Position numbers and translations under genes: made by a program. The notes under the pieces are model-generated. The model searched no databases, was not told where the DNA came from, and worked only from the letters and a program-made list of their open reading frames with translations. This document shows, one piece after another, positions 3,901 to 51,667 of a stretch of DNA of 64,000 nucleotides (its first letter is position 1; each line of letters opens with the position of its first letter). Origin of the DNA: Plumapathes pennacea (taxonomy: Eukaryota; Cnidaria; Anthozoa; Antipatharia; Myriopathidae); the NCBI GenBank assembly GCA_964036295.1, contig OZ038472.1:13364385-13428384 (forward strand), written 5' to 3'.

Positions 3901-6900
3901 AGACACAATACTAAACAAACAGGAAGGGACAGTAAAATATCATTTTAGGGAAAAGCATTGGAAGTTGTTGTTTATGTCTGACATGGCCACTTATTGGGTA
4001 AATGAATGTTCCTATACTTCTTGTTTCCGGGCTAAATACAGGTTCTAGGAACAGTGAATTGAAATGTTTCTCTCTTTTTTTTTTCTTTTTTCTTTTTGCT
4101 TTAGACCTTGCTTTCATGGAGCATCCTGCTTGGATGGAATTAACACATTTACCTGCAGGTGCCCCGTTGGATTTAATGGAGAGCATTGTGAAAATGACAT
4201 CAACGAATGCCAGTTTAATCCATGCCACAATGGAGCTACGTGTATAGACCAGATAGGGTTATATAGTTGCTACTGTAAACCTGGATACACTGGCAAGAAC
4301 TGTGATCGCGTCATAGACCGGTGCAATACGCATCCTTGTAAACATGGAACCTGTTCACATAGTGGAGTGAATTTCACATGTACATGCGATTCAGGGTACC
4401 GGGGAGTCTTCTGTGACGTGGAGGAAGTGTCTTGTTTTGTGGCCATTAGTAAAGCTAATGGAAACAACATTTGCAACGGTGGAACTTGCAAAGATGACAG
4501 CAATGGGGTGCAAACTTGTGTCTGCCCTGCAGGATTTGGAGGAAGTTTCTGTGAGATAAACATTGATGACTGTGCAAGTGGACCCTGTCAACATGGAGCA
4601 ACCTGCATAGATCATGTGGGAAATTATACTTGCAGTTGTTATCGTGGCTTCACTGGTCGTAACTGTGAAGTTGACATTGATGAGTGTGCAGTGGATCCGT
4701 GTAAGAATGGTGGCACATGCATTGATCTAGTGAATGACTGTGTATGCACTTGTCCCGTTGGGTGGGTTGGCTCGCACTGTGAAGTGAATCCCAACGACTG
4801 TTTTGAAGGAGCATGTTTCTACGGAGGAACATGCCATGACGGCTTGCGCAGCTATAACTGTAGCTGTCAGCCAGGCTTCACAGGAGCTCGATGTGAAATT
4901 GGCATTGACAAGTGTGCTGCGAAGCCTTGCTCCAACCGTGGCACCCAGAGGTGTGCCTCTCTTGTAAATGACTACCACTGTCAATGTAAACGTGGATTTG
5001 TGGGAAAAGATTGTGAGACTGACATCAATGAGTGCTTGTCTTATCCTTGTAAGAATGGTGGAAGTTGTAGGAATGGAGCTGGAAAGTACACTTGTATGTG
5101 CTACCATGGGTATGCAGGGTTGAACTGTGAAAGGAAGGTGCACAGCTGCTACGATAAGCCATGCATGCATAATGGTACATGCATGAACTCTGGTGGGAGC
5201 TATACTTGCAGCTGCAAACCAGGTGTAGAGGGCACCCAATGTGAGTGGAACATAGACGAGTGTTTATCAGCTCCTTGTAAGAATGGTGGACAGTGTATTG
5301 ATGGCTATGGCACCCATACATGCCTCTGTGCTGCGGGTTACACGGGAAGGAACTGTGAGCAGAACATTGACGAGTGTCGCAGCATTCCTTGTCGGAATGG
5401 AGGGAAATGTGTTGACCAAGTGAATGGCTACAAATGTATCTGCAGAGGTATGTGTTGACATGGCAAGTCTTTTTTTTTTTTTTTTTTCAAACAACCCAAC
5501 CACTGACATGAAACTGAACAGAGAGTGTTTCACATACAATCTCATTTTCTTTGCCTTTTGTGTACTTTGTAGGGGAATTCACGGGAGATCGTTGTGAGGA
5601 ACGCGCAAAGTGTGAATATGATGATTGTTCAGCCAAGATGATTGGTCCAAGCAAGTGCAAGGTAAGTTGTTATACAGTTCAAAATGCAGATTCTCCCAAC
5701 CATTTAAGAGGAAATTTTATGAGTGATGTAGTGAGAATTAAGAGTTTAATCAGCTGTCATCTGAGCAAGGTACCAAAAGCCAAGTTCTCCTTACTATATA
5801 TGATACATTTCTGGTGAGAAATTGAGGGAGAAAATAGAAGTTGATCACTCTTGGGAGTGAAAACGTTAAACTAACCAGGATAAAACAGTAGAACGTATTA
5901 ACGTAAAGTTGAGGTGCCGGGGGTATATGGTGAACGCCGTAACGACTGTTTATAACTATCAAAAGAAGAGTTTATTTAAAACGTTGTGCGTTTGGTTGAC
6001 CTGTAGGAGCGATGTAACAACCAAGCGTGTGGCTGGGATAATGGGCGCTGCTCCCTGGGCTTGAAACCTTGGGCCAATTGCAGCGCATTGACAGTTAACG
6101 GCTCCGCGTGTTACGACGTGTTTCAAGATGGCCAATGTAACAAAGAATGTAATACCGAACACTGTCTTCTGGATGGATTTGACTGCAAAACTGGCAGCGA
6201 CCAAAAGTGCTGGTAAAGTGGGCGGTTGTTTGCTATTGCAGTCAGTGTAACTGAGATTTTATGTTACGTAAATTAAAGCTGGCATAGTGGAGGGTGCCTT
6301 CTAATTGTGAATTTGTGTGCTTTGCAGGAATCCTTCATATTGCTCGTCTCGATTCTCCAATGCTCGTTGTGACTCCAACTGCAATACAGTCGGATGCTTA
6401 AAGGATGGTCTAGACTGTGCGGCTGACAAACCAAACTATGTGAGTCCTGGCGTTTATTGATGTTGCAATTGGTCCTTCCTCCTCACTCCCCTGATTTCTT
6501 TCATTGCGCCTTTCTTTGAAAGTTCGTCAGTTGTTGCTCTTCCTAAATCGAAATTTTGGTGTTCATAAACCGACAATGGACGAGTTCTCGTGTCCTGACT
6601 CATCGACCCTTTGCCAGATAAATGCGTTGAGGTGAATCCAGTCGAAAATCAGTGGATTCAAATTTACACTCACGGTCCTCATTTAGGATATTGCTGTTGT
6701 TTTCTCAGGCTGACGGTACTCTGGTGTTGATTCTGATGGTGTCACCGAACAAGTTTCTGAACGGCTCACACCAGTTCATGTACAGACTGTCACAAGTGCT
6801 CAGGATTGTCGCTATCATCAAGACTGACGTGAACAACGAACCTATGGTCAAAAAGTACGAGTTCCCGACTTCCCGCAAAAGGAGGGCACTGAGTGAGGTT

Positions 6901-9900
6901 CCAGTGTTCCGCTATAGACGCGCAAGTTCAAGTGGCGGGTACGTACCTGAAGTAAGGCAACTAGGAAGAAGTATATATTGATCAATTCAGGGTTGCATGA
7001 TGTGGATAAACCTAGAGCCGTGAAAGCTGATGTTTTAAGCCTTCGTCCTCCGTTACACTGTAGACGAAGGACTTTAGACGCTCGTAACGCCAGCTTAAAT
7101 CACTTTTACGGCGTCAAGATTGTACACATCGACCTCAAATGGATACATATACGTTTTATCTCAACACCAACACATACACGCGCGTGTGCATATGTACCAG
7201 TTCATGATTCTCTGACCGGGCTGGCAGTGTGCTCAACTTTTCATTCATACTTTCCCGTTTGTTTTTAGAACGGAGTTGCACGTTAAGCTCGACAAGCGGG
7301 GATGTTCAGGAGAGTGTGTACAGGACGCGAATATAGTGCGTATCTAGCTGTCAAGTTATCTGGCATTTTATTGTCTTCCTCGTTGTGTATAGCAGACACT
7401 GGTTAACGGCCCACTTTCCTTCTTTTAGGCTGCAAACTTCTTGGGAGCAACAGCAACAAGTCAAAAACTGGACCTGCCATATGATGTGTATTCCGCTCAA
7501 AGTAAGTAGCCACATGTACTCGGGCTGAAGCAAAGTCACTAAGTCAAGTAAAGTCCGGTCCTGCTTTTTTTTTTCTTTTTTTCTGCGACACTCAAAATTC
7601 CATTGTATTTTAGGTGAGCCTGACTACACCCCGTCCACATCGGCTCCTCAGACGTCTCTGGAGTCCCTGTGGATTGCCCTTCTATGTGTGAGTATTCCGC
7701 TGTTTGTGATGGGAGTTTTAGAGGGCGGCAAGAGAGTGTACGCAAAGGTCTGGTTCCCTGAAGGATTTTCGCAGAGACGTGATCAGCGGCGCTCCTTCAG
7801 GCGCGAACCCGTTGGACAGGAAGTTTCTATGAGGTGAGAAGAGGTCCTCACCTTTTCCTCGTTCTTCTTGCCTGCATACTGGAAGAGCCTAGACAAACTC
7901 GTGCTCTCATCTCGCTAGTTGTATTCACGATAGAAATTTGACTCCACAGATTGATGAGTAAAACTTCCAGTGAGGTGGACGAGGAGGGAGCAGCAGGAGG
8001 CGAGAGGCGGTCAGAGCTCAGCAGCTCCTCAGGAGACTCGTGCGACCCGGCGAAGCGGGTCCGGCTGGATCACTTGAGTGAGAAAGACGAACGCACATGG
8101 ACGCGGCTTCACTTTGAGGCAGCGGATGTCAATGTGAGAACATGCTCGTGCATGATGCCACCTCAGGACGGCGACTGTAAGGGCGCGATGGATTTTGAGG
8201 TGAACCAGCCCGGTCCTGGTGGGATTACGGCACTGCATCTTGCATCTTGCAGAGGCTCACTGACAGATGGCTGTGATGATGATAAGGATAGTGACAACAA
8301 CAGCGGACAGATGGTGCAAGACTTGATCGCGCTCGGTGCCACGATACAGAGTCAGGTCGAGTATACAGGGGAGACCGCGCTCCACCTGGCCGCGCGACAC
8401 TCGCGCGCGGATTCAGCCAAGCGGCTGCTGGAGGCGGGTGCTGACGCGAACGCTAAGGACAACTTAGGACGAACTCCGCTCCACCTTGCGGTCAGCGTTG
8501 ATGCACAGGGGGTGTTCCAGGTATGCAAACCTGTCCACTATTGAGATTCGTTCTTAATTTGGTTGAAAGTTTGTGATGCTTGAGTGTTAAGTCCTGGCCG
8601 TATGGACGCGCAAGTTTCCGACTTAGGCTGCGTTTCCACTTGCCGTTTACACGAAAGCGATTGACTTCAGCGATAAAACGCGTCGATTCGAAAACGCAGC
8701 TAAAATGAATCCGGTTTCTGTTTTCGTGTGAACAACAAAAGACGAGAACGCATCCATATATACGCAGCCTTCCGTTGGCTTTTGTCATTCGATTTGGCCA
8801 GGGCGTTACTGATTGCAGGGAGTCACTGCTTGATGGCTGTGACGATGGTAATGATAACCAAAGTAGTAGTAGACAAATGGGCTTTATCACTTTGGAATCG
8901 CATCTTTTCTAGTTACAATAGTGTCTTTATCTTCAAAGCTTGACGCAGTCACAAACTATCTGTGAATTAGTTCCTAAATGGATGTCTTGCCTTTAATCTG
9001 TAGATTATGTTGAGAAATGATGCAACCAAGCTTGAGGCAAAGATGAACGATGGAACTACGCCACTAATCCAAGCGGCAAAGCTTGAGCTGCTTGACATAG
9101 TGAAAGACCTTATAAAAGCTGGCGCTAGAGTCAACAGCACAGACAACCAGGGTACGTACGTGTAATCAATGGCAAATTTGTTGTGAATCTTGGTTTGTAT
9201 GGCCAATTAATCGTTACTCTTTTTAACAGGTAAAACTGCGCTCCACTGGGCAGCTGCAGTTAACAGTCTCGAGGTAACTGAAGAACTCCTCAAGAACAAC
9301 GCCAAGAAGAATGCTCAGGACGACGAGGTGACGGAATGCTCTCATAAAAACAAAACACAAATATATTTGTAGAGAGTTTGGAGCGGGAGGGGAAGGGGGG
9401 GAGTCGTGTAGCGGATAATGCAATGGTCAAGAATTCAGTGAAAGAAAGTACATCTATGTTCAACCAAAATTTTCAGTTTCTTTTTCTTTTCTCGCACTTT
9501 GGTCACCGCCGTATCGTTTTTTATTATATAGACACGAGTGTTTTACTGGAAAATAAAACCGTGCGTAAAATCCGTACAAAATTACATCCGGGACCTGAGT
9601 CCATATCCTCACTAGTGAGGATATCGTTGGCATCATTTCCCGCTTTTGCACGGTTGTTTGTGCAATTTCTCGTAAAACACTCGCATCTAAAATAATAAAA
9701 AGAAAATTACACGGCGGCTTGAAGATATGGATTTTATCTTCTCGTGGTAAAAACAATATTTTACTCACTCGCGAAGCGCTCGTTCGTAAAACATTGTTTT
9801 TACCACTCGAAAATAAAATTCATATCTTCGCGCCGCGTGTAATATCCTCTATCTATTTGTGTTAGTATCACTATTTATTGGTGGTGTCGCGATTACGGCT

Positions 9901-11157
9901 AGCTTTTCTAACTAATATTTTCTTTTTGTTCATTGCAGGGTCAAACTCCGTTGTTTCTTGGGGCTCGCGAGGGCAACATCGAAACAGTTCGTTGTCTTCT
10001 CATTAATGGTGCAAACAAATCGATGGTGGATTTCATGGAACAAAGTCCGGAACACATCGCCCAACTCAGGTCACATCTGGATATTGTGCAACTGTTGAGA
10101 GCAAATTATTCTCGATATCCCAGTGCTCCTGAAGCAGTACCTATTCCAAAGTCAAACGGTGGTGTTCGTCCTTACTCACATACAGGTAAGTCTTCCACGT
10201 ACGATAGTTTGTTGCGAGAGAAGAAGAAGAAGAAGAAGAAGAAACTTTATTTAACTACGGAATTTCATCAATCTTTACAGATTGCTTTCCATGAAAGCCG
10301 TACTACATACTAATAAATTTATATATAACTTCAAGAGAGAGAGAGAGAGAGTTCTTAGCAAGGAAATCCAGGTACTTTCAAACTCACCTCCACCGAATCA
10401 TCGTGCCAGCGTGGCATTTCCTCCAAATGACCCGCGTCTTAAACTCAACCCCTCCATGCGGAGTGTCCGCTATGAAACGACAACAGTAAACAGAAACCCG
10501 AGACAAAAGCGCAAAAATGAAAACAGTGGTATTTGTCGTTCTTCAGATACATGTCAGCCTTCTACGTACGAGAGTTTGGTGCGAGAGGCTGAGAGTTCTC
10601 AGCAAGGAAATCCAGGTACCAGTTGGAGAGATTTTTCAAACTCACCCCTAGAGAATCAATACTATCAGCTTGCTGGCGCGACATCATCTCCTCCAGTTGA
10701 CCCACAGAATGGAGTCATGAAAGAGTTCCCTGTAACGGTTTGGCGTAAGTCCAACGCCTCCAGACAAAATGCCCGCTCTGAAACGACAAGAGTAAACGGA
10801 AACCCGAAACGAAAGCGCAAAAATCAAGCAAGGCTGGACCATGATGGATCAGTACCACTCACTGTAGCTTCACCTCTCACCAGCTTGTGTTACTCGTCTC
10901 CATCCAACGGTTCCTCTCCTCGTCTTTCGCCCTGCAGCAGCAGGAATTTGTTTCCCCCGTCATACGTTTATGGCGCAAACGGACCGTCCCCACAGGGAAG
11001 CTCGGGCACGGTCGCCATCTCGCCCGCAAACTCCACCACTTTACTTCCGCCTCTGACGGGTTCATTAGACGCTCGGTCACCGTCCTCCATTCAGGATGAC
11101 GTAGGACTCGGCGGAGTGCTTGATGACAGAGATCCTATTTTTGAGACCCAGGTTTAG
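841..11157 (+). CDS. Notch: Notch receptor (leader exon outside or missing)
   Basis: This is a Notch receptor, the single-pass cell-surface protein cut by gamma-secretase to release a CSL-binding transcriptional co-activator. Coding exons read from splice sites: 841-913, 1594-1925, 2276-2503, 2964-3228, 3536-3796, 4105-5447, 5573-5661, 6007-6212, 6328-6439, 6709-6938, 7269-7335, 7429-7501, 7614-7833, 7950-8520, 9004-9151, 9230-9327, 9939-10185, 10547-11157. All junction phases agree, giving about 1,723 visible residues and a stop at 11155. Domain order is about 20 EGF modules, LNRs, NOD/NODP heterodimerisation region, membrane span, RAM, ankyrin repeats, basic NLS, Ser/Pro-rich tail. The first exon starts in phase 1, so a signal-peptide exon is expected upstream of base 1. 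Oddities are an incomplete first EGF and an exon duplication at 3536. Family identity is certain; exact 5' structure and use of every exon are inferred. Confidence 0.93.
1594..3228 (+). CDS. Notch: Notch EGF exons (1594-1925, 2276-2503, 2964-3228)
   Basis: Three exons encode seven consecutive EGF modules, several of calcium-binding type (DIDEC, NIDEC, DINEC starts with a C-x-C-x-x-G-F/Y-T-G end). The first two exons end in phase 1 inside an EGF, just after the TG or TSG tripeptide before the last cysteine, and the third ends in phase 2 at ECQSR. Introns of 350-460 bp separate them. The 2504-2963 intron contains a dispersed repeat (2600-2760) also seen in introns of the sushi genes. Confidence 0.9.
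3536..3796 (+). CDS. Notch: Notch duplicated EGF exon, phase 2-2
   Basis: This 261-bp exon lies after a long T-tract acceptor and is a near copy of 2964-3228, including its second EGF (NVNIDEC ... GYTGRYC) and the following intron start. Its 5' end instead resembles the acceptor of the 4105 exon (PC after the splice). Because both ends are phase 2, including or skipping it keeps frame. When included after 2964-3228 the hybrid module carries two extra cysteines (PCSYDGC, DIGC). When skipped, ECQSR joins PCFHGASC and forms a normal EGF. It may be an alternative cassette or a recent duplication under decay. Confidence 0.6.
4105..5447 (+). CDS. Notch: Notch large exon with 12 EGF modules
   Basis: A 1,343-bp exon, entered in phase 2 and left in phase 1, encodes about twelve EGF repeats without introns, from PCFHGASC to KCICRG. 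Most have the Notch calcium-binding start D-I-D/N-E-C. One module has an insert ([13 protein letters not shown] before ICNGGTC), and another shows NDCVCTC, with a cysteine where an aromatic residue is usual. Fused EGF exons of this size suggest past intron loss. This block would contain the ligand-contacting and Abruptex-like region, but which repeat is orthologous to which cannot be judged by eye. Confidence 0.92.
5573..6439 (+). CDS. Notch: Notch last EGF part and LNR exons (5573-5661, 6007-6212, 6328-6439)
   Basis: 5573-5661 closes the last EGF (GDRC) and leads into the linker ending GPSKCK in phase 0. 6007-6212 carries Lin12/Notch repeats: CGWDNGRC, then [10 protein letters not shown]...CLLDGFDC. 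6328-6439 carries a further [12 protein letters not shown]...CLKDGLDC. LNRs bind calcium through Asp/Asn and cover the S2 cleavage site until ligand pulls. Exon length and phase of 6328-6439 (112 bp, 2 to 0) match exon 36888-36999 of the second gene exactly. Confidence 0.9.
6709..7501 (+). CDS. Notch: Notch heterodimerisation region, NOD/NODP (6709-6938, 7269-7335, 7429-7501)
   Basis: 6709-6938 begins [13 protein letters not shown], a typical NOD start, and runs through [14 protein letters not shown]. Residues RKRR at 6874-6885 and a second RYRR just before the exon end are good furin S1 sites (R-x-K/R-R). 7269-7335 ([14 protein letters not shown]...) and 7429-7501 complete NODP up to the membrane-proximal stalk. 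All three exon phases agree with the second Notch gene, and the dead copy at 15951 derives from this stretch. Confidence 0.9.
7614..7833 (+). CDS. Notch: Notch transmembrane and RAM exon
   Basis: After a short stalk ([13 protein letters not shown]) comes the span [18 protein letters not shown], followed by the stop-transfer GGKR. A Gly-Val pair at the cytoplasmic end fits S3 gamma-secretase cleavage. Residues VWFP at 7748-7759 match the hydrophobic-W-hydrophobic-P motif by which RAM docks on CSL. The exon ends in phase 2 (SMR). Confidence 0.92.
7950..10185 (+). CDS. Notch: Notch ankyrin-repeat exons (7950-8520, 9004-9151, 9230-9327, 9939-10185)
   Basis: The 571-bp first exon has an acidic/Ser-rich linker, a basic KRVRLDH stretch and the first ankyrin units ([31 protein letters not shown]). 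Later exons add [20 protein letters not shown] and [12 protein letters not shown]. Together they form six to seven repeats, the platform for CSL and Mastermind. Frames join 0-0, 1-1 and 0-0. The 9328-9938 intron carries an inverted foldback element. Confidence 0.92.
9518..9860. repeat. Foldback repeat, copy B, inside a Notch intron
   Basis: This is an inverted relative of 105-420, with the same CACGAGTGTTTTAC ends and the same CCTCACTAGTGAGGATA dyad at about 9606. It sits between ankyrin exons 9230-9327 and 9939-10185. The intronic position and palindromy indicate a miniature mobile element; no protein is encoded. Confidence 0.7.
10547..11157 (+). CDS. Notch: Notch terminal exon: NLS and Ser/Pro-rich tail
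   Basis: After the acceptor CGTTCTTCAG the exon reads [14 protein letters not shown] and ends [10 protein letters not shown]-stop. PKRKRKN at 10804-10824 is a basic nuclear localisation signal, and the rest is Ser/Pro-rich with a transactivation/PEST-like composition. The preceding intron (10186-10546) contains a diverged copy of the exon's first half (STYDSLLRE at 10192; [10 protein letters not shown] near 10490), so this region was tandemly duplicated. Direct read-through from 9939 would instead stop at 10313. Confidence 0.82.
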
Positions 11158-15950: not shown

Positions 15951-18900
15951 GCCCAGTTTATGTACAAACTGTCACAAGTCCTAAGGATTGTCGCTATCAT
16001 CAAGACTGACGCGAACAACGAACCTATGGTCAAAAAGTACGATTTTCCGATATCCCGCAAAAGGAGGGCACTGAGAGAGGTTCCAGTGTTCCGCTATAGA
16101 CGCGCAAGTTCAAGTGGCGGGTACGTACTTTTAGTAAGGCAGCTAGAAAGAAGTGTATATTCAAGGTTGATTTGAATAAACCTAGCGCCGTCAAAGCGGG
16201 CGTTTTGAGCCTTCGTCATTTGTTACAATTTAAACGCTCGTAACTCCAGCTTAAATCACTTTTACGACGTTAAGATTGTACATATAGACCAAGTGGATAC
16301 ATATACGTTTTTTCTCTACATTAACACATACACGCGCGTGTGCATATGTACCAGTTCATGATTCTCTGACCGGGCTGACAGTGTGCTCAACTTGTCATTC
16401 ATGCTTTCTCGTTTGTTTTTTAGAACGGAGTTGCACGTTAAGCTCGACAAGCGGGGATGTTCAGGAGAGTGTGTACAGGACGCGAATATAGTGCGTATCT
16501 AGCTGTCAAGTTATCTGGCATTTGATTGTCTTCCTCGTTGTGCATAGTAGACACTGATTAACGGCCCTACTTCCCTTCGTTTAGGCTGCAAACTTCTTGG
16601 GAGCAACAGCAACAAGTCAAAAACTAGACCTGCCGTATGATGTGTATTCCGCTCAAAGCAAGTAGCCACATGTACTCAGGCCTAATAAAAGTCACAAAGT
16701 CAAGTGAAGTCCGGTCCTGTTTATTGTTTGTTTGTTTTTGCGACACTCAAAATTCCATTGTATGTAGGTGTTCCCAAACGATGGAACGGTCGTAACACAC
16801 AATTTGAGGATTTAAAAGGATGTATTTCCGACGTGAAAAAAAAGATAAACTTCGCAGCATAACAATTAGTCTCAACTCTACATGTAAACACACACGTCAA
16901 CTTCGCTTGAACACATGTCATATCCGAGCCCGCGCGGTGGGCAGTGGTACAATCAAATCAAGAAGCGTGACTGAAAACGTGACTTCGGCAAATTCGTTCG
17001 TAAACATGGCTAAAATCGATCGTTCCGAAACAGTAGGCGAGGCTGACTACACTCCGCCCACATCGGCTCCTCAGACGCCTCCGATCTGGAGCCTCTGTGG
17101 GTTGCCATTCTATGTGTGGATATTCCGCTGTTTGTGGTGGGAGTTTTAGCGGACAGCAAGAGAGTGTACGCAAAGGTCTGGTTCCCTGAAGGATTTCGCA
17201 GAGACGTGATCAGCGGCGCTCCTTCAGGCGCGAACCCATTGGACATGAAGTTTCTATGAGGTGAGAAGAGGTCCGGAAATTAAGACGGAATTTAGAACCG
17301 GATGATAAAATAACTTTCAGGGCTCAGGGCTCAGGGCTCGGTTGTACAAAGCACGAATAGGCTAGCCTGGGTTAGGTTGAATCATTATTTTCATTTTTGA
17401 GTCTGAAAATGATAATCCTCGCTGTGGTTAAAGCTTGAACAGACTTACTGTGTAGTTTCTTGACCAGAAGCACGAGAGGATGAGTTTGATTAATCCTGGA
17501 TTAACTTAATCGAGCTTTGAGCAACCTGGGTTAAGTATCAACTCTCCCTCATTTTTCTCGCCTGTATACTGGAAGAGCTTTCCAAAAAAAAAAAATTACT
17601 TGAAAATTGTTAACCTAAAACAAGGTCTTTAGTTGTCCAGAAGTGGGCATTGCATTTAATACCAAAAGACTGAAAAGGGACTATGGTTATTCTTGGATTA
17701 CGTTCACACAATTCTAGGGACAAACTCGTGCTCTCATCTCACTAGTTGTATTCACAATAGAAATTAGACTACAGATCGATTAGTAAGACTTCCAGTGAGT
17801 CGGCCGAGGTGGGAGCAGCAGGAGGCGAGAGGCGGTCAGAGCTCAGCAGCTCCTCAGGAGACTCGTGCGACCCGGCCAAACGGGTCCGGCTAGATCACTG
17901 GAGTGAGAAAGACTAACGCACGTGGACGCGGCTTCACTTTGAGGAGCGGATGTCAACGTGAGAACATGCTCGGGCACGGCCCTGACGCCACCTCAGGACG
18001 GCGACTGTAAGGGCGCGATGGATTTTGAGGTGAACCAGCCCGGTCCTGGTGGGATTACGGCGCTGCATCTCGCATCGTGCTGGGGCTCATTGACAGATGG
18101 CGGTGATGATGGTAAGGATAGTGACAGCAGCAGCGGGCAGATGGTGCAAGACTTGATCGCGCTCGGTGCCACGATACAGAGTCAAGTCGAGTATACGGGG
18201 AGACCGCGCTTCACCTGGCCACGCGACACTCGCACGCGACTAATTCAGCCAAGCGGCTGCTAGAGGCGGGAGCTGACGCTAACGCCAAGGACAACCTTGG
18301 GCGGACTCCCTTTCATCTTGCTGTTAGTGCAGATGCTCGAGATGTAGTACAGGTAAAGAACGCGCCCTCGATCATTCTCATTGTTCATTTTGTCCGCTGT
18401 TAGTTTGTCGGCTTTGCTTTGGCTGTACACATGCGACAGACAAACAAAACCCTTTTAAGTTTTCTTTGGAATTGCGTGAGAATTCCTATATTTCTGAGTT
18501 GGACGATGTAAGTATCAGGCAAATTAGCTCTAAACTGGATGTTCCGCCTACTTTCTGTAGATTATGTTGAGAAACCGTGCAACCAACCTGGAGGCAAAAA
18601 TGAACGATGGCACCACTCCATACCCTAGCGGCAAAGTATGGCCTGCCTGAAATTGTGAAAGAACTAATAAAAGCTGGAGCCAAAGTCAATAACACAGACA
18701 GCCAAGGTAAGTACGTGAAATTAATCGAAGATTATTTCGCCAGTTATTTTATTTATTTTGTTATAATAGTTTGGCCATTTTTTATTTTTACCACAACACA
18801 CTAGTTTCTCGCTCTCTGATTGGTCGATTAACCGTGGTAAATACGAGTCCAGACAACGATGTAACGCCAGCTGACGCCAGCGTGTCACGCTTTGCAACGA

Positions 18901-19400
18901 AATACAACGAAATTTTATTGTATATTTCTAATTGTTGTAAAAAGCAAATTTCCACTGGTTTGCTCTCGGCGAAGCGCCTCGTGAGTCCACAACATTTTGA
19001 CCATGTGATGACGTAAATTGTGGTAAATAAGAGTCCACACCACGGAAAACCAGTGGAAATTTGTTAAATATCATATGACGGGGGAGCACTGTTGGCCTTG
19101 TTGGCACTGAGGGTGTGGTCACATCCAGTTGTTTGCGTGCTCAGTGATTCTATTACGTTTTTGTTTTGTTTTGTTTTGTTTTTCAGTCAAAAACGGGCCC
19201 TGATGTTTTATGTGTTCTGACCACTTCGAAAGTTCATTGATTGAGTGGGTTAACACCGGGTCTTGGTTTTATAGTCAATTGATGGTGCCTTTTTTTCAAC
19301 AGGTAAAACTGCACTCCACTAGGGAGCTGCAGTTAACAGTTTCCCGGTAACTGAAGTGCTTCTCAAGAACAACGCCAAGAAGGATGCACAAGACTGTAAG
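15951..19400 (+). pseudogene. Partial Notch copy, broken (NOD to ankyrin)
   Basis: This is a duplicate of gene positions ~6774-9327 that starts inside the NOD exon. Recognisable exons: 15951-16120 (NOD, 5' truncated), 16424-16490 (NODP), 16585-16658, ~17037-17262 (membrane/RAM), 17775-18352, 18561-18706 and 19303-19400 (ankyrin). Disruptions are one extra A in 16585-16658, whose donor is GC instead of GT; a stop TAA at 17914 where Notch has GAA; frame shifts in the membrane and ankyrin exons (18561-18706 is 2 nt short); and TAG at 19320 where Notch has TGG. A ~270-bp insertion precedes the membrane exon. The copy ends before the last Notch exons. It is dead as a receptor; a processed role for its RNA is untested. 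Confidence 0.9.
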
Positions 19401-19560
19401 GTAACTAAGTTGATCTCATGAATGAATCTGTCGTAGGGTAACGTAGGGTGGAGGCAGTGGGGAGGAGGAAGAGGTAGGTGGGGGCGTTGAGCAAGGATCT
19501 TGATAACTTGGGGATTGATAGCTTTTATAGCTCTGTTATTTATTTATTTATTTTTCATCC

Positions 19561-21065: not shown

Positions 21066-21067
21066 TT

Positions 21068-26785: not shown

Positions 26786-26789
26786 TTCA

Positions 26790-31483: not shown

Positions 31484-31550
31484 ATGGGGGCTGCCACGTG
31501 GGCCGAAGCAGTTCTTCTCTTCTCCGTATTGATTGTCACCTCAGTTACAG
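31484..31550 (+). CDS. Signal-peptide exon of the Notch-GT gene
   Basis: ATG at 31484 lies 13 bases inside an exon that follows the acceptor TTATTTTTAG. It encodes a typical leader (VLLFSVLIVTSV) and ends in phase 1 at 31550. The next exon enters in phase 1. The following intron (31551-33365) is non-coding. It contains a dispersed repeat at about 31850-31960 (GCGACCACCTCTC type) that also occurs in the intron at 40100-40220. Confidence 0.85.
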
Positions 31551-34500
31551 GTAACTTTATAGACAGTAGTTATTAGGGTCGGCCAATTTTTGCAGCCAGT
31601 AGTCGAGTTACTAATCCTACTGGTAAAAAACGAACTGGTTATATAAATATTTATGTTAATCAGTTTACATTCCTGAGATTCTGAGAGTAATTATTTGGTC
31701 CTGGATATAAGTATTCGTTTTAATGGCCCGATTGATGTAATGTGTAGTTAGTTTTATTCTATGTGAATATTATTCAACCCAGCATCCTTTTTCGTTTGAG
31801 GCAGACTGTTAAATGTTTATATATATGTACAGTGGAACCTCCTGAGCGACCCCTCTCGTAAGCGACCACCTCTCTTAAGCGACCACCAGTTACCAAATGA
31901 CCGATTGGTCCTCAGTCAAATTACTATTAACTCAAGGTGTTATCCGCTCACTAAAAATTGCATTATTTGACACTGGTTGTGGCTCAAAGCTGAATCTCAC
32001 TTAGGCCTCCCATGGCGAAAAATTCCCGTAAGCGTTTTAATAGCATTTTAATCATGCCCTTAGGTGCAACACTAGCTTGCATTCAAGTAAACCACTTTGT
32101 TTTATTATCTCATTTATTCAATATGTGTTTTTCATCGATATACTGAGATAAGACAATTACTTGATCCGGTTCAATGAAGCTAGTAACAGCTGCTATGAAA
32201 CAAAGACAACTGAGAACAAATATGCCGCCATCGTAAGAACACTACAGCTTGGAGCGCGCGATAGCAGGGCGTTACACTTTGCTAAAGCCAGGAACTTTAG
32301 GGAAAAGTTGGGGCTAAATTTCAGACGTTTTAGGGTCCTTACACCTTCCAATCTGATTATCTTAATTGTCTTTCAAATTCTTTATTCTTGATTGACCAGC
32401 CATAGCGAATCTCATGCTCTCTGAATAGTGGGGGTGTATTGGGCGTGTATTTAATTCCGAATCAACGTAAGCGAAACGGTTTGTTATGTAGACGTACCAT
32501 TTCATGCAAATTTTACTTAAATAAATATTGTATTTTTAGAAGTGCCCACGCGTTTATCAAGCATCTGCGCACGCGCACGACTTGAAGAATTTGAGGTCTG
32601 AGATTTTTCTTAAAAAACTGACGAAAGCTACGAAAACAGAAGGCTGGTCTGTATGTTCTTATCGACCCGTGATATTCCGACCATTTTGTGTAATTATAAT
32701 AATTAAAAATTATTCGCCGAAGTGGAGGTGAATAGCGGTGGCTATTTCGAAATTGAGTAGCCAATCAGAGCGCGCGGAAAGCACTATTCACTTTTGTTGT
32801 ATATACTGAGTACTAATGACCGTGTAAAAGTATGGCAATTTAAGTCTTAGCTACTCACAAACCATTTGATTAGTCGTCCTCTGTTGACAGTTTTATGTTT
32901 ACAGGTGCTTGATAATATAAAGACTGTTGGTTTGAGCCACGAAATGTCGCACGTAGATTGTGTTGCTTCGTGTGACTTGCTCATGCGACAAATTTTCAAG
33001 TCAGGTCTCGGTCGCACTTGTGACATTAGCGACAATAATGTGGACATTTACAACTTCTCAGGTGCAAACGGCGCTTTGTCGCCGGCGAATATGTTGATGA
33101 GCTGCTACTAAACTTCGGAGAAACCGTCGTTTTTCTCTGGATGCTTAGTTAATTATTAACTAAATAGTCTAGTGCTACCGGGCTCTTAACCAACCACGAC
33201 CTCACATGACACTCATATATCTATGCGACAAATCGACAACGAGGCGACAGGCTCATGCGACAAGTCACATAAAATGATAATGTCGCGAGGACATGTCGTG
33301 TGTGACACTTGGACCTTAGCGTCTGTCATAAATGAATGTTCACGCTTAGTCTGCTCTTTCCTTAGCTCACTATCTTGCTTGTATTACGGGGCATTGCCAT
33401 AATGGGGGAAACTGCTCTCTCGTCAATGGACATCCTAAGTGCAGGTATTTATACCCAGTAAGAGATAACATAAAACAGTCGAGCCTCTTTAACACGGATA
33501 TTAGAGAGTGAGTTGTCCGTATTGCATAGGACATCGATGTGACGTCATTCCAAAGAAATATTAATACAATAACAGTTTTTGATCATAACAAAGTGATACA
33601 AAATGCCTAATGCGGCTTTTACTGCATGATTAAAGGACGATGAATTACATTTCTATGGTCTCTTTTCATTCTGTCACAATTGATATTGTTGTTTTCGCAA
33701 ATTACTGTGTTGACTTCCGCAGTCTCTTTTTCTGGTTTTACTTCTTCAGTCGGTTTTTCTCCCTTTTGCTCTTCCTTGAAAGTATGTATGAATTTTGCTC
33801 TCTGCGGCCAACTTTTGGTGTCCTTAGTCTGTAATATGGAGGGTTCGCCTTTAAATAATAATAATAATAAAAAAAAAACAGAAGTGTCCTTAAAGAGAGG
33901 TTTGCCTGTATGTGGATAATATATTTGTGCAGCTGAAAATGCAAATACTTTAAGGCCGTAAAACCCGGTTATGAGATATATTTGTTCATATTGACATCCA
34001 GTATATCGAGGTCTCAAAGTAGTTGCAAACAGTTATAAATAGTTTATTAACGCATTTATTTGTTACCATAATTTCGGGAAAAGAATATTCAGATGCAGTT
34101 GTCTTGTCGTTTAAAGAATGATAAACTCATTAGCTCGACGAAAATTGAAGCGATGACCATTTTTATACTTTTTATATTTCCTCCATAGTTGCAATTCACA
34201 TTTCACTGGCATTCATTGCGAGAAAGACGTGGATGAATGCAAAAACATCTCTCCGCCTTGCCAAAATGGAGCCACATGTGTCAACTATTTGGGCGGCTTT
34301 AGTTGCAGCTGTCTCCACGGCTGGAACGGGTCTGACTGTTCCATAAACATTAATGAATGTGAACCCGATGGCTTTTCTAATTGCCACAATGGAGGAACAT
34401 GTGTAGATGGATTAGGGTATTATACGTGTGTCTGCCCTCAAAACAAAACAGGTTTGTTCTGCACACTTGCTGTTGGTGCTAATAATGCTCAAGGGTGAAG

Positions 34501-37301
34501 TTATTGGTTGAGTTTAAAATCATCAGCAGTCACATGTAAATTGATAGGTTTTTTTTGCTTTGGTGTCTTATTGGTTTTCCTTTAGGCCCAAGATGTGAGC
34601 ATGATAAATGTGTGACGAATCCCTGTGCAAACTCAGCTACGTGCATACTGGATGAATCTGGGAATGCCAGTTGTATCTGTTCCAAAGGCTGGACTGGAAA
34701 ACTTTGCAATTTTGAGAAGAACAAGTCAGTATGCGATAGTGTATATGCCTCCAATCCACCGTGCTACAATGGAGGAACGTGCAAAGAAGTCAATGAAAAT
34801 ATCGCCTGTGACTGCGTTCCCGGTTTTAGCGGTTAGTTGTTCTAGCTCAAGATGTATCGAATGAGTCGTTTTGTTTTGCTTTTGTTTTGTTTGTTTTTGT
34901 TTTTTGTTTGTTTGTTTGTTTGTTTTTTTCAGCGAAAGGTCCTCATTTTCAGGCTTAGAATGACAGCAAAGTTTAGATCTAACCGAGGTTTTAGCTTAAT
35001 CGTGATTTGAACAACCTGCCCTGAGGTTTAACACCATTTTCCATTTGGTCCTAATGGTTATTTTTGTCACATATACATATTCCTAATCGGAGAGCAGCAT
35101 CTAAATCAGTGGTGGTGTGAATGGCCAATGTCTTTGATCTACTGATGCGATGTATATTTCATCGTATGATTTTTGTCATTTCCAAGCTGACAAGGAAGGT
35201 CTAAATTAGCAATATACTGAAAGTCAACTATGTAGATAGTGCCACTTGTTCATCTAATGTCTGATCGTTCGGGTGAGACTATTAGTCTTCAGAAATCTTA
35301 TTGAGTACTGACAATTCAACACCAGGCAACTTCATAAGCATCTAATTCAGATGATGGCATACGTCTCCACTTGCTGCTGTAATTAGCAAGGAGTTCTAGT
35401 GATCGTTAATTCTCTTCTTTTTTAGGCAAATACTGTGAAAAAAGAGCTCCGTGTCAGTCAAGTCCCTGTCGTAATAATGGGACTTGTACGGCCAATGTAG
35501 GTGAATTTAACTGCACTTGCATTAAAGGGTTTTCGGGCGAACGATGCGAGAGAAATATTGATGACTGTGCCTCGTCACCATGTGAACATAATGGTACATG
35601 TGTTGATGGAATCAATGCCTACATTTGCCATTGCATTGGTGGTTACACCGGCAAGAATTGCAAGGCTGAAATTGATGAGTGTGTCAGTAATCCTTGTGCA
35701 AACGGTGGCACTTGCCGGGATCGCGTGAACGGATTTCAATGTGATTGTCGAAAGGGATTTAGAGGTAAGTCAGCTGGTCGATTTTCAACCTTTCATTTAG
35801 CTTAGTATTTAATTTTCATGTTCGTACGTTACTTGTTGTAGTTAACTTGTGTGTAAAACAAGTATTGGAGAATCAATAACTGCTAATTAAAGTTTATAAA
35901 TCCTTATATTCTCTACCGTGTGATTTGCCAAAACAATACAGGAAAGCAATGTGAGATTGTGAACCAAGATGAACCCCATGTTTGTTCAGTTCCAGCTGCT
36001 GGCATTAAACTCTGCAAAGTAAGTCGTAGCGTCTAATATTATAACGTAGTTTTTTCTCATTATGTTTTGTGTGTTTGATTTTTAGGCCCTGTTTACACTT
36101 GAAAACTATTTCAGATACAAAGTATCCGGATAGACCTACTTTCGATTCCGGATTCGTTTTCCCTCCGGATTCACTAAAAATATTCACTACAAGACTTTAT
36201 GCTCTCTAAGCAACAAACTTACTACTACAGTTCTACTAACCCTTCAACCTAATTCTACATTTTAAACCACGACTAATTTAGGTCGCGTTTAAGAGACTAG
36301 CCCTCGCAGCTCGCAGTTTTGTTTTTGTTCTTGTTTTTGAGGTTATGCTTGCAAGGTATAGCAGGGTAATAGAACGTAAAACTAACTTGCAGTACCGTCA
36401 TATGAGAATAGTAAAATGTGCGTTGTCTCCTACCATTGCTTGCAGGCCAAGTATAACAATAAAACATTTGGCTGGAATAACGGGAGCTGCTCTCTTGGGA
36501 CGAAGCCTTGGGACAAATGTACCACAAAGACAGCCAAAGGCTTCTTCTGTTATCAGGTTTTTCAAGATGGCCAATGTGATAAAGAATGCGATACGGATCT
36601 CTGTCTTCGGGATGGGTTTGATTGCGAGAAAGAACGGCCTCATTGCAGGTGCAGTAAACAGTAAACGCAACCTAACACGTCATGTTTAAGGCCGTTTTTG
36701 GATGATTGTTGAAAGTAATCGTGTGATTGCTTTGGTTTTGCGTTTGCTGCGTTTTGTTCGGTTTCGTCTAAATATGTTTAGCATTCTTAGACAATCAGGC
36801 CGAAATGGCAAGGTCGCATCTGAGTATCTTAAAGAAAAGTTGCTATATATTTGTATTTACAGTTGTTATTGCCTGCGCTCTTTACAGACTCTCTTCAAAT
36901 TGTTCGTCCGTCTTCAACGATGGTCATTGTGATGAACATTGCAATAAAGGAACATGTTTCAAAGATGGCTTGGATTGTACGGGAAAAAAAGGAGACGCTG
37001 TGAGTTAGAGTATTTTGCCTCACATACACAATGAAATGGACGTACGAAAAGCAACAGTTTTTCGGATGCTAGTTTTCCCGTGTTCAAATATCTGTGTCTG
37101 TACGTTCATCTGTATCAGTATATCGCTACTTAGTTAGTCATATTTAGTATCATCCTGGGAAACGTTAACAATTAGTATTTTTGGTTAGGGAGTTTAATTT
37201 TGTCTCATTATTGCAACGAAGAATTTTACGTTTTATTTATTTATTTTTACAGATTTTAGTGATATTGTAACTTAGTACGTTTGTAGATAGAGGGCAACTA
37301 G

Positions 37302-37355
<54 letters not shown>

Positions 37356-38475
37356 ATTATTATTATTTTATTTATTTATTTATTATTTTAATTATTATTT
37401 TAATTTTTATTTATATCTCTTTCAGGCTGAAGGCACCCTGGTGTTTACTGTACTGCGCACTTTTTGGAACAAATCTCAACAGTTTATGTTCAAATTGTCC
37501 CACTTGGTCAAGATGGTCGCCACCATTGAAACTAATGGAAACAACGAGCGCATGGTTTCGCCAACTCACAAAAAGAGAGCACACAGCAATGTTTCAGAGC
37601 TGTAAGTTCCGTTATAAACTTGCAAGTTCAATTTTCGGGTGTAGCTTCGGTGTAGGTAGAATGTGTTTTTCCACTGTTTTCATGGGCTTCTCATTTCGTA
37701 TTCAATACATCCACTTTACATTGAATGCAACACTCACGCCCATAACACTGGCACAGCAGTTATTGGGAGGCTACCTGCAGACTGCAAAGCTGGTACGAGG
37801 TACTTATCTGACTGCGCTCAACAGTCTATTAGATCTTTTCTTTAGATCAGTGGGATGGAGATACATCTCGCTCCAGCATTGCTAGCTAGTCGAAAGGGGG
37901 AGGGCGGGGAACGGGGGGGGGGGGGGGGGGGGTAGGATCCTGTTTTGCTGACATCATCACTTAGATGATTTTGTTTCTCTTCAGAACCGAGGTTCACGTG
38001 AAATTTTACAAGCAAGGTTACACAGGGAAATACCTGAAAGATGTGAATATGGTGCGTTGCTTTTGCTGTCAATAAATGATGTTTAAGTGGCTTACAAGCG
38101 TTTTTCCAAGCAACCAGGAGTGTTCAACAGGGCAAAGAGTACTGTAAAATGACTTATGTTAGCCGATTGTGTGAACGTTTGAAATTTCCTTAGATTGAAG
38201 TAACTGAGTTTTTGACAGTGTGAACGCGTGCTAATACAATCTCGGTGTAGATCTTTGTGTGAACGAGCCACATTTGAACGATGCAGTGAATGCGAAATGT
38301 CACGTGCATAGGCCGCCTAAATTGTTTAACTTAATTAAATAACATCCCAAATCTAATTATTCTAGATTAAGGATTTCTTGGGAGCGTTAAAAGTATACAG
38401 AAAGCTGGACCTCCCTTGCCATGTTTTTTCGGTCGAAAGTAAGTACCCACAAAGTAATACGTTTACTACTACTAC

Positions 38476-38553
<78 letters not shown>

Positions 38554-38571
38554 CATCATCATATCATCATC

Positions 38572-38609
<38 letters not shown>

Positions 38610-41600
38610 CATCATCATCATTATTATTATTATTATTATTAGCAAATTAAACATTAGGTTAATGAGATGATCTGAATTGTTGATCTGTGTTTATTACCTC
38701 GACTTTTCTTTGTGAGCTTATTTTCAAAAGTAAGAAATAATAAGGGGAGAGAAATAAGAAGTAAGAGAAGAAACACTGCATTTTATGTCTGTAGTTACGT
38801 TGAGTCAGCTGAAGCACTTAGAAATTGTTAAGAACATTAACGAAGTCTCGAGAAGTCTTACTTTCTTTCCTTCGTAAATGATATAACATCAAATACGAAC
38901 AAAGGCCTCCTTCTACACTTGTTTTTTAGTTTTCTCGAAACTTTAAAATTCTCCTTATCATTTTCAGGTCGGATGCCCATAAAGATTCGACCGCCATCGA
39001 CGTTATCTCTTACAACGTATTGGAATAAAGAATGGCTTATACCTCTTTTGATGTTTACGGGCGCTTTTCTGCTTAGTGCTTTCATATTTTGTATTTGTGG
39101 TCGCCTTTTTTACAAGAGAATGTACACCAAGGTGATGTCCCGTGCTGGTTTTGCGCAAAACCGAAAAGATGAGAGCATGCTTCTGCAGGATGACGGCGCT
39201 GAAGATGCTGCAGATGCTCTAGACAGGTAAGACAGCTGTTATTTTGTTCCGTACTTATTGGTACTTTGACAATCAAATCAAGGTGTTCCGAAACATGATG
39301 TACTTAGAAAACTCCTTCTGTGACTATTCCGGATCTATTCCTATTCCGTTATAAAAAGTAACAGGAATACACAGAATATTATCTCCCACCATAACATGTT
39401 TATTTTGTTGTGTGTTATTCTGATAGCTGACATGATAATAGTATCTGACATGCCAATGTTTAGTAATATTTTGCCTCTTAAATAAAAATCAGAAGATTGA
39501 TCTTTTTAACGTGATCATAAAGTCCTGTACGAGGGTATAAACCAACCGAAGACGTTGTATAAGCCCAGTGTTTATAACCGATATTGCTTTATTCGACTAA
39601 TACAAAACTCAATGAATTTTCACAACTCACAGATGCAGCAACAATAACTCTTGTGAAGCAGATGACCAGGGTTCTTCTGTAGACTCCGCTACGTCTGTCA
39701 CGTTAGACGCTGAACGTGGTAATGCATACTACAAGCGTAATTCAACTCCACGCCGCTGTGAACGTCACCAAACACACGAGGCAGAGCGGCTGTTAGATGG
39801 AGCTGATGCTAACGCCAAGGACAGTTCTGGACGGACTCCAGCTGTAGCGAGTCAATCATTCCCCCATGCTGAGGCAGCTTCGTCTCAAGCGAGCAATATT
39901 CCTGGAGTGGTTGGTTCCAAAACGACCGCCAGTCCGCCACAAGGTGCCCGCCCTAAAACGACCAGAGTGAACGGAAATCGAAACGGGAAATTTGTGCCAG
40001 TGAAGCATGCCGGGACTAACGAGAACATTAGAATGCCTCTGCTAGAATCGTCACCACACCGGGACAGTGGCAATGAAACTCAAACGGTGAGTCTTAAATG
40101 TGGTCATGGTCGCTTACAAGAAGTAACGTCGTTTACGAGAGGTTTTACCAATAGTAATTTGACTGAAAAACCAATTGGTACTTTGGTTACTGGTCGCTTA
40201 AGGAAGCTTGTTTCCCCGTAGTTGAAAGGATTAGCGGGAGATGCCACCATTTTACCGTCGAGGGGGTATAATTTTTAGTTGCTTCATTCTTGAAAAACTT
40301 AATCGCCGGCCGGATAATTATGATGGACATATTTATAAGTGACTTAAGTGATTTATTAGTGAGCTTATTTATAAGCTCGCCGAAGTACCTCGGTAAATTT
40401 TCACTGCTATTCACCTCCACGTCAGCAAATAATTGTTAATTATTTGCAGAACACAGATTTCTGAACAAGTAAGTGCAACATACGTTTACGAAATTTGCAG
40501 TCTGCAATTGTTTTATTTTGTGTAATTCTATTTTTTTTTCCATTTTCTGTATAGTACGTTCATCCCAGTGGAGACGCCCGCCTTACCACTGAGCAGCCGT
40601 TCGTTCAAACAGATCAAATGCACATCTTGTTCTTAGCCAAAACATGGGACGAGTCCATCATAAATCACATGTCCGTACAGTTTGCAAAAAGTGGAAAGGG
40701 GCGAGTATCTTGTCTGGTGGCACACACTAACGAAGACGAAAAGGCAAAAGCTAAGAGAGCCGGGGTTCATTTGTATCTCGCCAACTCCCTGATCGGGTGC
40801 TCAACCGATGACCCTATATTTTTACCACCAGATGGCTTAATTGACGTTGGAGTAGATGTTATCATTGGTTTTGGTCATTTTGGCGGTGTACACGCCCAAA
40901 TTGTAAGGCTTCGTTTTCGCAACAGTATCTGGGTTCATATTGCAGGGTCTTCTTCTGAAGATCAGACTAACTGTGAAATTCAGTTTTGTGAGGACTCAGA
41001 TCTGACTTTTGCCATTGGACGTAAAATGGCAGCAGAATGCGAAGGCCGACTTGCATCGAATAAGAAGACTGTTCATGACATTGTCCCTGCAACATTCAAG
41101 GAGTTCCAAAAGTATGAACAGTCAGATGATGAAAGGGATGTTTCTAAAGTGATAACCTTTTACCCCTCTGTCAGAGAGCTTATTGCAGGTGGAGATATCA
41201 CCAGAATTCCAGCCAAAGCAGTTGGTGGGCTGTCGCGCGACAAATACCGGTTGATTGCCGTGCGTTCTCCGCAGGATGAAGCCAATGAATTGGAAACATT
41301 CCTCCGGAGTGACATTTCTCCCGGCCAACTGAGTGTACGAGGGCACTGTAGCACTGAGGAGAGTTGCAAACTGTTTGTTGAAGGAGATTTGCTGCTTCTG
41401 CCCTTCTCACCATCTAAAACCGAACAGTTTGGTTTCGTTGGCCTGCAGGCTCTTTCAGCAGGTCTTCCTATCCTCGTCGGCAAGGATCTAGGACTTGCGG
41501 AAGCTTTGAGAAAGGTGCCCTTTGGTAGGTCGAGCATAGTGACCTCTAACAAGCCAGAAGACTGGAGCAATCACATTCAGGTTGTGAACGACCAGCAAAG

Positions 41601-42025
41601 AAGTTTACGTCTTTCAGAGTATGACATATTGCGTCAAAGCTATGACGAGCAGTACTCCTGGGAAGGACAATGCAGTAAAGTCCTTGAGGAGATCTTCAAA
41701 TTAGTGCATGAAAAAAAGGTATGTTTTGTTTTTGTTTTCACATTTAGATCCATTCATCCTTGCTTTATACCTTAACCCTTCGAGTCCAAAAAGATAGTTT
41801 CTCCTTGCCTCACAACTTGAAGATACAGTACGGTATGGACAACTTAGTATCTGATTACTTGCACGGTAGACAGCTGATCAAAATTTGAATTCTCTTTATG
41901 TCTCTAATACTCCTGTCTCTTTGCAACAGATGAAAAGATTTTGTACGTAAAGGGTTAAGGAGTAATATTTTTTATTTACATTTCAGCAAGATATCGTGAA
42001 AGACGAAATCCAGGACTCTGCATGA
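31484..42025 (+). CDS. Notch-like receptor fused to a GT-B glycosyltransferase domain
   Basis: Fifteen coding exons join without a frame break: 31484-31550, 33366-33444, 34189-34451, 34586-34831, 35426-35764, 35942-36018, 36446-36648, 36888-36999, 37426-37601, 37985-38051, 38366-38438, 38968-39226, 39633-40086, 40555-41718, 41987-42025. They total 3,618 nt and encode 1,205 residues. Domain order: signal peptide, eight EGFs, LNRs, NOD/NODP, membrane span, a ~200-residue linker with a fossil ankyrin fragment, then a ~390-residue GT-B domain. Ectodomain exon phases equal those of Notch at 841-11157. Unlike Notch it lacks the CSL-docking RAM motif, a working ankyrin array and the NLS, so a canonical Notch output is unlikely. 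The enzyme-like module would face the cytosol. An alternative is two neighbouring genes, with the second starting at ATG 40618; the in-phase splice makes fusion more likely. Confidence 0.85.
33366..36018 (+). CDS. EGF exons of the Notch-GT gene
   Basis: Exons 33366-33444, 34189-34451, 34586-34831, 35426-35764 and 35942-36018 encode eight EGF modules, versus about 20 in the neighbour. Examples are HCHNGGNC completed by FTGIHC, DVDEC, NINEC, NIDDC and EIDEC starts. The phase-2 break inside the first EGF is identical to exon 841-913 of the neighbour, and here cysteines 5-6 are present. The last exon ends in phase 0 before the LNRs. Confidence 0.92.
36446..36999 (+). CDS. LNR exons of the Notch-GT gene
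   Basis: 36446-36648 has FGWNNGSC, then FQDGQCDKEC...CLRDGFDC. 36888-36999 has VFNDGHCDEHC...CFKDGLDC. Calcium-site Asp and Asn residues are kept. The first partial repeat has Tyr-Asn where the neighbour has Cys-Asn, so one LNR disulfide may be missing. This part should still fold as a negative regulatory region. Confidence 0.88.
37301..37400. repeat. ATT microsatellite in intron
   Basis: A run of TTA/ATT units with TTTA blocks lies just upstream of the NOD exon acceptor at 37425. A second, longer run at 38466-38642 (ATT and ATC units) lies in a later intron. Translations in any frame give only homopolymers. Confidence 0.9.
37426..38438 (+). CDS. NOD/NODP exons of the Notch-GT gene
   Basis: 37426-37601 (AEGTLVFTVLRTF...QFMFKLSHLVKMVA), 37985-38051 and 38366-38438 match the neighbour's heterodimerisation region exon for exon; the last two have identical lengths (67 and 73 bp). 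The furin S1 motif RKRR is replaced by HKKR (37567-37578), which lacks Arg at P4, so S1 cleavage may be weak or absent. Confidence 0.87.
38968..39226 (+). CDS. Membrane-span exon of the Notch-GT gene
   Basis: The span LIPLLMFTGAFLLSAFIFCI is followed by GRLFYKR. At the aligned RAM position the neighbour has VWFP, but this gene reads VMSR (39132-39143). The Trp and Pro needed for CSL docking are gone. The exon ends with an acidic Ala/Asp-rich stretch in phase 2. Confidence 0.9.
39633..40086 (+). CDS. Linker exon with fossil Notch intracellular parts
   Basis: It contains [20 protein letters not shown], clearly derived from the ankyrin unit [20 protein letters not shown] of the neighbour. Further on comes RPKTTRVNGNRNG, derived from the pre-NLS stretch [15 protein letters not shown]. 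The core ankyrin array between these is deleted and the basic cluster is lost. It ends in phase 0 at a good donor (ACG/GTGAGT). If this intron is retained, translation ends at 40219 without the GT domain. Confidence 0.85.
40555..42025 (+). CDS. GT-B (group-1 glycosyltransferase-like) domain and C-terminus
   Basis: Exon 40555-41718 is open in phase 0 from its first base, and a 39-bp last exon ends at TGA 42023. The N-lobe starts MHILFLAKTW...INHMSVQFAKSG and contains GVDVIIGFGHFGG. The middle has QFCEDSDLTFAIGRKMAAE, a motif I associate with GT domains of invertebrate immune-type proteins. The C-lobe has TEQFGFVGLQALSAGLPILV, the nucleotide-sugar site of GT4-like enzymes. The usual E-x7-E is E-x7-Q here (41422-41448). 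The intron-poor exon suggests capture of an existing GT exon. Activity and donor are unknown. Confidence 0.85.

Positions 42026-51632: not shown

Positions 51633-51667
<35 letters not shown>

Follow-up and report, generated by a model that had tools for sequence, protein, structure and literature searches.

A predicted Notch-derived receptor with a terminal GT4-conflict domain in the antipatharian Plumapathes pennacea

Gene C, the subject of this study, is located on the + strand at positions 31484..42025 of a 64,000-nucleotide stretch of the Plumapathes pennacea genome (assembly GCA_964036295.1, contig OZ038472.1, positions 13,364,385 to 13,428,384), which is referred to below as the window. 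Its 15 exons probably fuse a Notch-like receptor part to a glycosyltransferase (GT)-type domain in one protein, in the order signal peptide, EGF repeats, LNRs, NOD-like stretch, one membrane span, tail and GT4-conflict domain. Canonical Notch is opened by the pull of its ligand and cut by ADAM and gamma-secretase, and Notch is usually treated as a pathway with one output, in which the freed tail goes to CSL. On balance, gene C is best explained as a diverged tandem Notch paralog, in which a terminal effector exon appears to have replaced the transcriptional interior. Put more strongly, a duplicate of Notch is predicted to have given up the parts that face CSL and to have acquired an immune-type terminal exon: the CSL-binding RAM motif, the NLS-like (nuclear localisation signal-like) motifs and all ankyrin sequence but a remnant are missing from the predicted protein, and what is left of the Notch tail is continued in frame by a phase-0 GT4-conflict exon.

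The gene model was rebuilt from the raw DNA. All 14 introns are of the GT-AG type with phases that are consistent throughout, and the coding sequence of 3618 nt yields 1205 amino acids (aa) followed by a single terminal stop; the joining of 15 exons without a frame break, as claimed in an initial annotation made from the sequence of the window, is borne out by this, and the joined architecture is indeed out of the ordinary. Exon 1 (31484..31550) encodes the signal peptide MGAATWAEAVLLFSVLIVTSVT, and an in-frame TAG is found immediately 5' of its ATG. Exons 2-6 (33366..36018; individually 33366-33444, 34189-34451, 34586-34831, 35426-35764 and 35942-36018) encode the EGF repeats and the beginning of LNR-A, exons 7-8 (36446-36648 and 36888-36999) a degraded LNR-A, LNR-B and LNR-C, and exons 9-11 (37426-37601, 37985-38051 and 38366-38438) the heterodimerisation (HD), or NOD-like, region. 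Exon 12 (38968..39226) contributes the membrane span and the juxtamembrane stretch including KRMYTKVMSRAGF, exon 13 (39633..40086) remnants of the ankyrin domain and of the Notch tail, exon 14 (40555..41718) a linker and the GT4-conflict domain, and exon 15 (41987..42025) the final 12 residues and the stop. The hydropathy profile has two peaks, the signal peptide and a single membrane span at aa 589-616. Three candidate explanations could be discarded at this stage: chance joining of unrelated open reading frames is ruled out by the 14 consistent junctions, an assembly gap by the absence of any N from the window, and a Golgi-type glycosyltransferase such as Fringe by the Pfam assignment to GT4-conflict, the single span suggesting that the domain is on the cytoplasmic side.

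The receptor part was compared with L041, a canonical-looking Notch on the same contig (C11) at 15.20 Mb, 1.8 Mb from gene C, which served as the reference for canonical Notch from the LNRs to beyond the tail, and whose interior, with ankyrin repeats and a long tail, has an open frame across five exons. Gene C resembles Notch, as represented by L041 and the neighbouring gene A, in its EGF repeats with a similar first repeat, LNR-B and LNR-C, a NOD-like HD region and a single span, but has only about eight EGF repeats and a damaged LNR-A. Seven stretches match the EGF profile PF00008 (E=2.4e-37), and eight repeats can be counted by eye; they carry seven O-fucose-type and three O-glucose-type consensus sites. 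Two stretches match the LNR profile PF00066 (4.2e-10), and the LNR and NOD stretches align with L041 in tblastn at 5.7e-24, 2.6e-8 and 8.4e-9, the last of which is the match to the L041 NOD exon. Furthermore, the phases of the span exon are identical at both ends in gene C and L041, as is the phase of the next acceptor. The Notch derivation that had been proposed for the receptor part is upheld by these alignments and by the matching phases. NOD, which had been named together with NODP, aligns to L041 but has a Pfam score of 12.5 bits (E=0.096), below the cut-off of 20, and NODP was not detected in the scanned segment of 167 residues, a scan without a positive control for NODP. As far as the sequence can tell, the ectodomain, LNR-B and LNR-C, the HD region and the span are Notch-derived. 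Over 182 codons of the LNR/HD region, nonsynonymous (dN) and synonymous (dS) divergence from L041 are 0.32 and 1.74 (NG86) or 0.35 and 1.54 (YN00), which looks like a region maintained by selection over most of its past; dS is near saturation, and the value averages both lineages.

On the cytoplasmic side, the juxtamembrane stretch KRMYTKVMSRAGF, in which gene C shares KR.Y.KV...GF with Notch, is the counterpart of the L041 stretch, an equally high score being reached by one of 1000 shuffles. The next element of Notch is the VWFP (PhiWPhiP) motif of RAM, which is its contact with CSL. L041 has VWFP, whereas gene C has VMSR at the aligned place and no match to the motif in the tail ahead of the GT domain. 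No Pfam Ank match is obtained for gene C at E up to 1, whereas the L041 frame matches at 1.5e-14; what can be recognised in exon 13 is a remnant of one ankyrin repeat, within aa 696-727 (score 74 versus a shuffle maximum of 48; 0/1000), and a Notch-tail remnant within aa 753-785 (score 58 versus a shuffle maximum of 53; 0/1000), the shared tail stretch reading QGAR.KTT.VNGN. Most of the Notch tail is missing, and neither PAKRVRLD nor KRKRKK, the NLS-like motifs of L041, is matched in gene C by the patterns used. Because RAM, ankyrin domain and NLS-like motifs are lost, the chain would be unable to recruit CSL by the known contacts, and it is likely that, as predicted from these losses, the CSL output is gone. 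The RAM motif and a multi-repeat ankyrin domain were looked for and are both absent; gene C is therefore, by its predicted protein, a variant derived from Notch that falls short of being a full Notch receptor. The initial annotation had taken the GT domain alone as the cytoplasmic effector, a view that has to be given up since the ankyrin remnant and the Notch-tail stretch precede the GT exon; its idea of a non-transcriptional output, in turn, is strengthened by the losses relative to L041.

Exon 14 alone matches the GT4-conflict profile PF20706 with 106.2 bits (cut-off 26; 2.4e-30) over profile positions 20-384 of 385, and in the whole protein the match covers aa 843-1180 (1.1e-28), which confirms that the last large exon encodes a GT4-type domain. 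The genome searches score the best candidates only, and the counts of GT places and LNR stretches obtained from them are lower bounds. With exon 14 as query, at least 26 places are found, one of which is a short fragment with two stops; the PF20706 profile finds at least 28 stretches, one being above the cut-off only together with its neighbours. Twenty of the other copies were taken with about 8.5 kb of upstream sequence (5 of the 26 places are not included), and at 18 of these loci (all but L026 and L030) the one or two longest upstream frames were compared with Pfam at E up to 0.001 / 0.0001. Intracellular-type TPR, NB-ARC, ZU5, LRR or Roc/COR domains or a trypsin-like domain were recognised at 14 of the 18 loci, which would place these frames and the GT domain in the same gene, judging from order and strand, the frames not being spliced to the GT exon. 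The upstream frame of L028 has an integrase-type match only, and those of L024, L039 and L040 have no Pfam match in the one or two longest frames. EGF or LNR/NOD sequences were not found by tblastn (E up to 0.01) upstream of any of the 20 copies, and among the places found by both genome searches, no LNR place besides that of gene C lies near a GT place. The gene C domain resembles the other GT4-conflict domains in being nearly full length, near the end of its gene and preceded by a phase-0 acceptor as in most copies, but differs in being carried by a single-span receptor and in having a shortened Gly-rich loop. In 14 of the 20 copies, the GT frame ends no more than 15 residues past the end of the domain, as a last exon would.

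Related domains have been described in print. PMC8195603 proposes in its main text that GT4 domains serve conflict systems as effectors, and gives more than 500 GT4 paralogs for Acropora digitifera; the main texts of PMC4083563 and PMC12314368 describe coral group-1 GT domains together with NACHT, TPR, LRR and ankyrin parts. These texts and the frames upstream of the other genomic copies agree with the earlier statement that the domain family occurs in immune-type proteins. Gene C shares with the NLR-like proteins of these two coral studies the combination of a metazoan sensor with a group-1 GT-like domain; however, the architecture described there is of the NACHT/TPR/LRR/Ank type, whereas the receptor is Notch-derived here. 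The word Notch is absent from the main texts of all three papers, and no Notch-GT fusion was found in the literature searched; an EGF/LNR-GT4 protein could be depicted among the GT4 architectures in the figures and supplements of PMC8195603.

Whether exon 14 belongs to the receptor depends on the splice junction ahead of it. An earlier acceptor scan, which gave a phase-0 acceptor in 15 of 20 copies, was biased to frames opened by TAG and was redone with the best-scoring acceptor, whatever its phase, in the 200 bases that precede the domain. This acceptor is of phase 0 in gene C and in 16 of 19 other copies (exceptions: L025, L026 and L040; the truncated L038 was left out), although the evidence is weaker than the count because the AG ends a frame-opening TAG in gene C and in 8 of the 16, where phase 0 is favoured by construction, and because the GT copies are related. 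The remaining 8 of the 16 acceptors sit within the frame. In addition, the gene C linker VHPSGDARLTTEQP resembles the linker of the nearest copy, LQSSGNDHSGGSSPEQP. Phase-0 acceptors and linker likeness together are the best evidence that exon 14 joins an upstream phase-0 donor; exon 13 supplies one, and exon 13 is presumably spliced to exon 14.

Divergence of the GT domain from that of the nearest copy amounts to a dN of 0.37 and a dS of 1.03 (NG86), or 0.395 and 0.913 (YN00). A tree built from gene C and 19 other GT sequences (20 in all; the truncated L038 was dropped) places gene C with L025 and the L021-L024/L029-L030 group and separates these from the remaining copies (support 97). The position of gene C inside this group is weakly supported (61 and 67), for which reason no copy is singled out as the donor. 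The exon would have come from this genome's own GT4 exon family, through exon shuffling. For the GT domain, 2 stretches were obtained from viral contigs and, with an alignment as query, 14 from prokaryote genomes, none of which was confirmed, and neither of the 2 GT domains compared with PADLOC falls into one of its families at E up to 0.01. L025 (C11:12365936-12367072), on the same contig at a distance of about 1 Mb, has an upstream trypsin-like peptidase frame (Trypsin_2, 4e-17). At L036/L037 (C12, 13.46-13.49 Mb), the full exon is preceded by partial copies of the linker and the GT start, which would fit an in-place duplication of the terminal exon.

PMC10970066 sets out the furin step of Notch and how its domains are arranged, and PMC4335385 argues for non-canonical Notch signalling in Nematostella. 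In gene C, a ligand on a neighbouring cell or a microbe would tug at the EGF/LNR stalk, upon which cleavage by ADAM and gamma-secretase would free a cytoplasmic chain of about 590 residues, or the membrane would retain it. The GT-B-type module might then bind a sugar-nucleotide or a glycan-bearing target, and could serve locally, and without CSL, as an immune-type effector or scaffold. Such a cleavage-gated effector mechanism is put forward tentatively; ligand-triggered release of the interior may still be conceivable, since the span and LNR-B/C are kept, with LNR-A and the furin-like site degraded. It is tempting to speculate, with similar reserve, that gene C represents a Notch-type juxtacrine, cleavage-gated surface receptor, which carries a released or membrane-bound GT4 module instead of a CSL co-activator, feeds the effector class on which NB-ARC/TPR/LRR-type sensors also draw and arose when Notch was duplicated in tandem and then took up the module through exon shuffling. 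If this holds true, the Notch sensor would prove to be evolutionarily modular, in line with the assumption behind synthetic Notch designs, and it would become a testable question whether cleavage-gated receptors can feed immunity-type effectors. The terminal exon would also provide a concrete example, within one genome, of an effector cassette that is reused behind unrelated sensors.

Several observations weigh against this reading. The LNR-A sequence CNNQACGWD of Notch is YNNKTFGWN in gene C, which is still recognisable beside L041 but has lost cysteines, and the furin-like site RKRR of Notch has become HKKR in the HD region; because of these two changes, normal Notch gating is uncertain. The first 37 residues of exon 13 align to Notch no better than chance (186/1000 shuffles), and an AlphaFold model of exon 14 from the single sequence has a mean predicted local distance difference test (pLDDT) value of 36. 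The dN/dS ratio is below 0.5 for both the LNR/HD and the GT half of gene C, but it averages both lineages, may partly predate the fusion and comes with a dS near saturation. The reservations about the acceptor count given above belong here as well.

Part of these observations would also be expected if the fusion protein stayed in the membrane as a decoy that competes with canonical Notch for ligands or proteases, with the GT-like domain only as docking site or ballast. A chain without RAM, ankyrin domain and NLS-like motifs would be useless for CSL by known contacts, LNR-A and the furin-like site are degraded, and the GT domain lacks the second glutamate of the EX7E motif and has a shortened Gly-rich loop (see below). 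However, a dN/dS of about 0.36 (NG86) to 0.43 (YN00) for the GT domain suggests that its sequence mattered for much of its history, and related exons lie downstream of sensor-type frames at many other loci. A decoy is held to be unlikely, although it ranks first among the alternatives.

The region could instead hold two transcription units, a truncated Notch-like receptor ending in the intron that follows exon 13 and a separate GT protein starting from ATG 40618. Exon 13 is indeed open in frame to a stop at 40221, the ATG lies just ahead of the first GT strand, and in 6 of 20 other copies a methionine is found within the 40 residues before that strand; the other 14 copies lack such a methionine. 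Moreover, the acceptor of exon 14 is of phase 0, its linker is like that of the nearest copy, the exon 13 donor GTGAGT has the matching phase, and the intron between the two exons measures 468 bp. ATG 40618 has neither a purine at -3 nor a G at +4, but ATG 31484 is without the purine as well. Taken together, two separate units seem improbable.

For the GT domain, binding or scaffolding was assumed above rather than sugar transfer. The acids of EX7E, the Gly-rich loop and the R/K pair of GlgA matter for donor binding or catalysis by glycosyltransferases. Of 21 GT copies, 18 have E and 3 have D as the first acid of EX7E, which is kept in gene C; the second position is Q in 17, Y in 2 and K in 2, with Q in gene C and E in none. 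The N-terminal Gly-rich loop after the first strand has 5 residues in gene C, compared with 11-15 in the 19 other complete copies (20 with gene C; L038 is truncated there and was left out), and the R/K pair of the GlgA sequence GRFDRGQKG is not evident at the aligned place. Binding or scaffolding is favoured over transfer because the second EX7E acid is absent and the loop is shortened; ordinary GT4 catalysis by the gene C domain is unlikely, and an active glycosyltransferase in gene C is doubtful. The opposite view, that the domain is a working glycosyltransferase which modifies host or invader molecules once released, can point to the near full-length PF20706 match, to the retained first acid and to a profile of 16 of the 21 GT sequences, which matches solved structures of glycogen synthases and GT4 enzymes, mainly in the C-terminal half (best 5.4e-6). 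The main text of PMC8195603 also proposes that the family acts as sugar-transferring effectors. Given the changes listed above, a working enzyme would be slightly more improbable than two separate units.

Least probable of all is a non-functional chimera or pseudogene that is still open by accident. The locus is unstable, with the Notch fragment gene B and the tail-shortened duplicate gene A as neighbours, and the degraded LNR-A could be cited as well. However, 15 exons have intact splice sites and no frame break, and a neutral copy as old as the LNR/HD values imply (dS about 1.7, dN 0.32) would be expected to carry stops.

Genes A and B are both located upstream of gene C on the same strand. 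Gene A (747..11154, +) is a Notch duplicate with EGF array, LNR, NOD, span, a RAM stretch with VWFPEGF and ankyrin frames. Its DNA is 91% identical to that of L041 over 5767-8808 and 73-81% identical in later pieces up to 11144; the tail frame stops at 11154, well short of the end of the L041 tail, and gene A may be a Notch without the C-terminal region or may be decaying. Gene B (15953..19406, +), which comprises the HD region, the span and part of the ankyrin domain, is probably a broken Notch duplicate. The genome-wide search for LNRs gave, among its best candidates, at least 12 stretches, which correspond to gene A, gene C, L041 as a third Notch on this contig, and places on C8, on C11 at 5.5 Mb and on C1 (one weak). 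Between gene B and gene C lies a repeat pair (19559-21070 and 27508-29030) of 92% identity, and a second pair (51436-53283 and 60644-62467) is 83.6% identical.

No Rfam family matches the window at gathering thresholds. On the - strand, a frame at 26387-26794 encodes a THAP domain (1.7e-9), perhaps from a DNA transposon. Downstream of gene C, at 44721-48800 (+), Sushi, two VWA pieces and a trypsin-like frame follow each other in an order which we take to be that of a complement factor B-type protein, and a Pentraxin domain (3.4e-27) at 58227-58727 (+) is another immune-type domain in the window.

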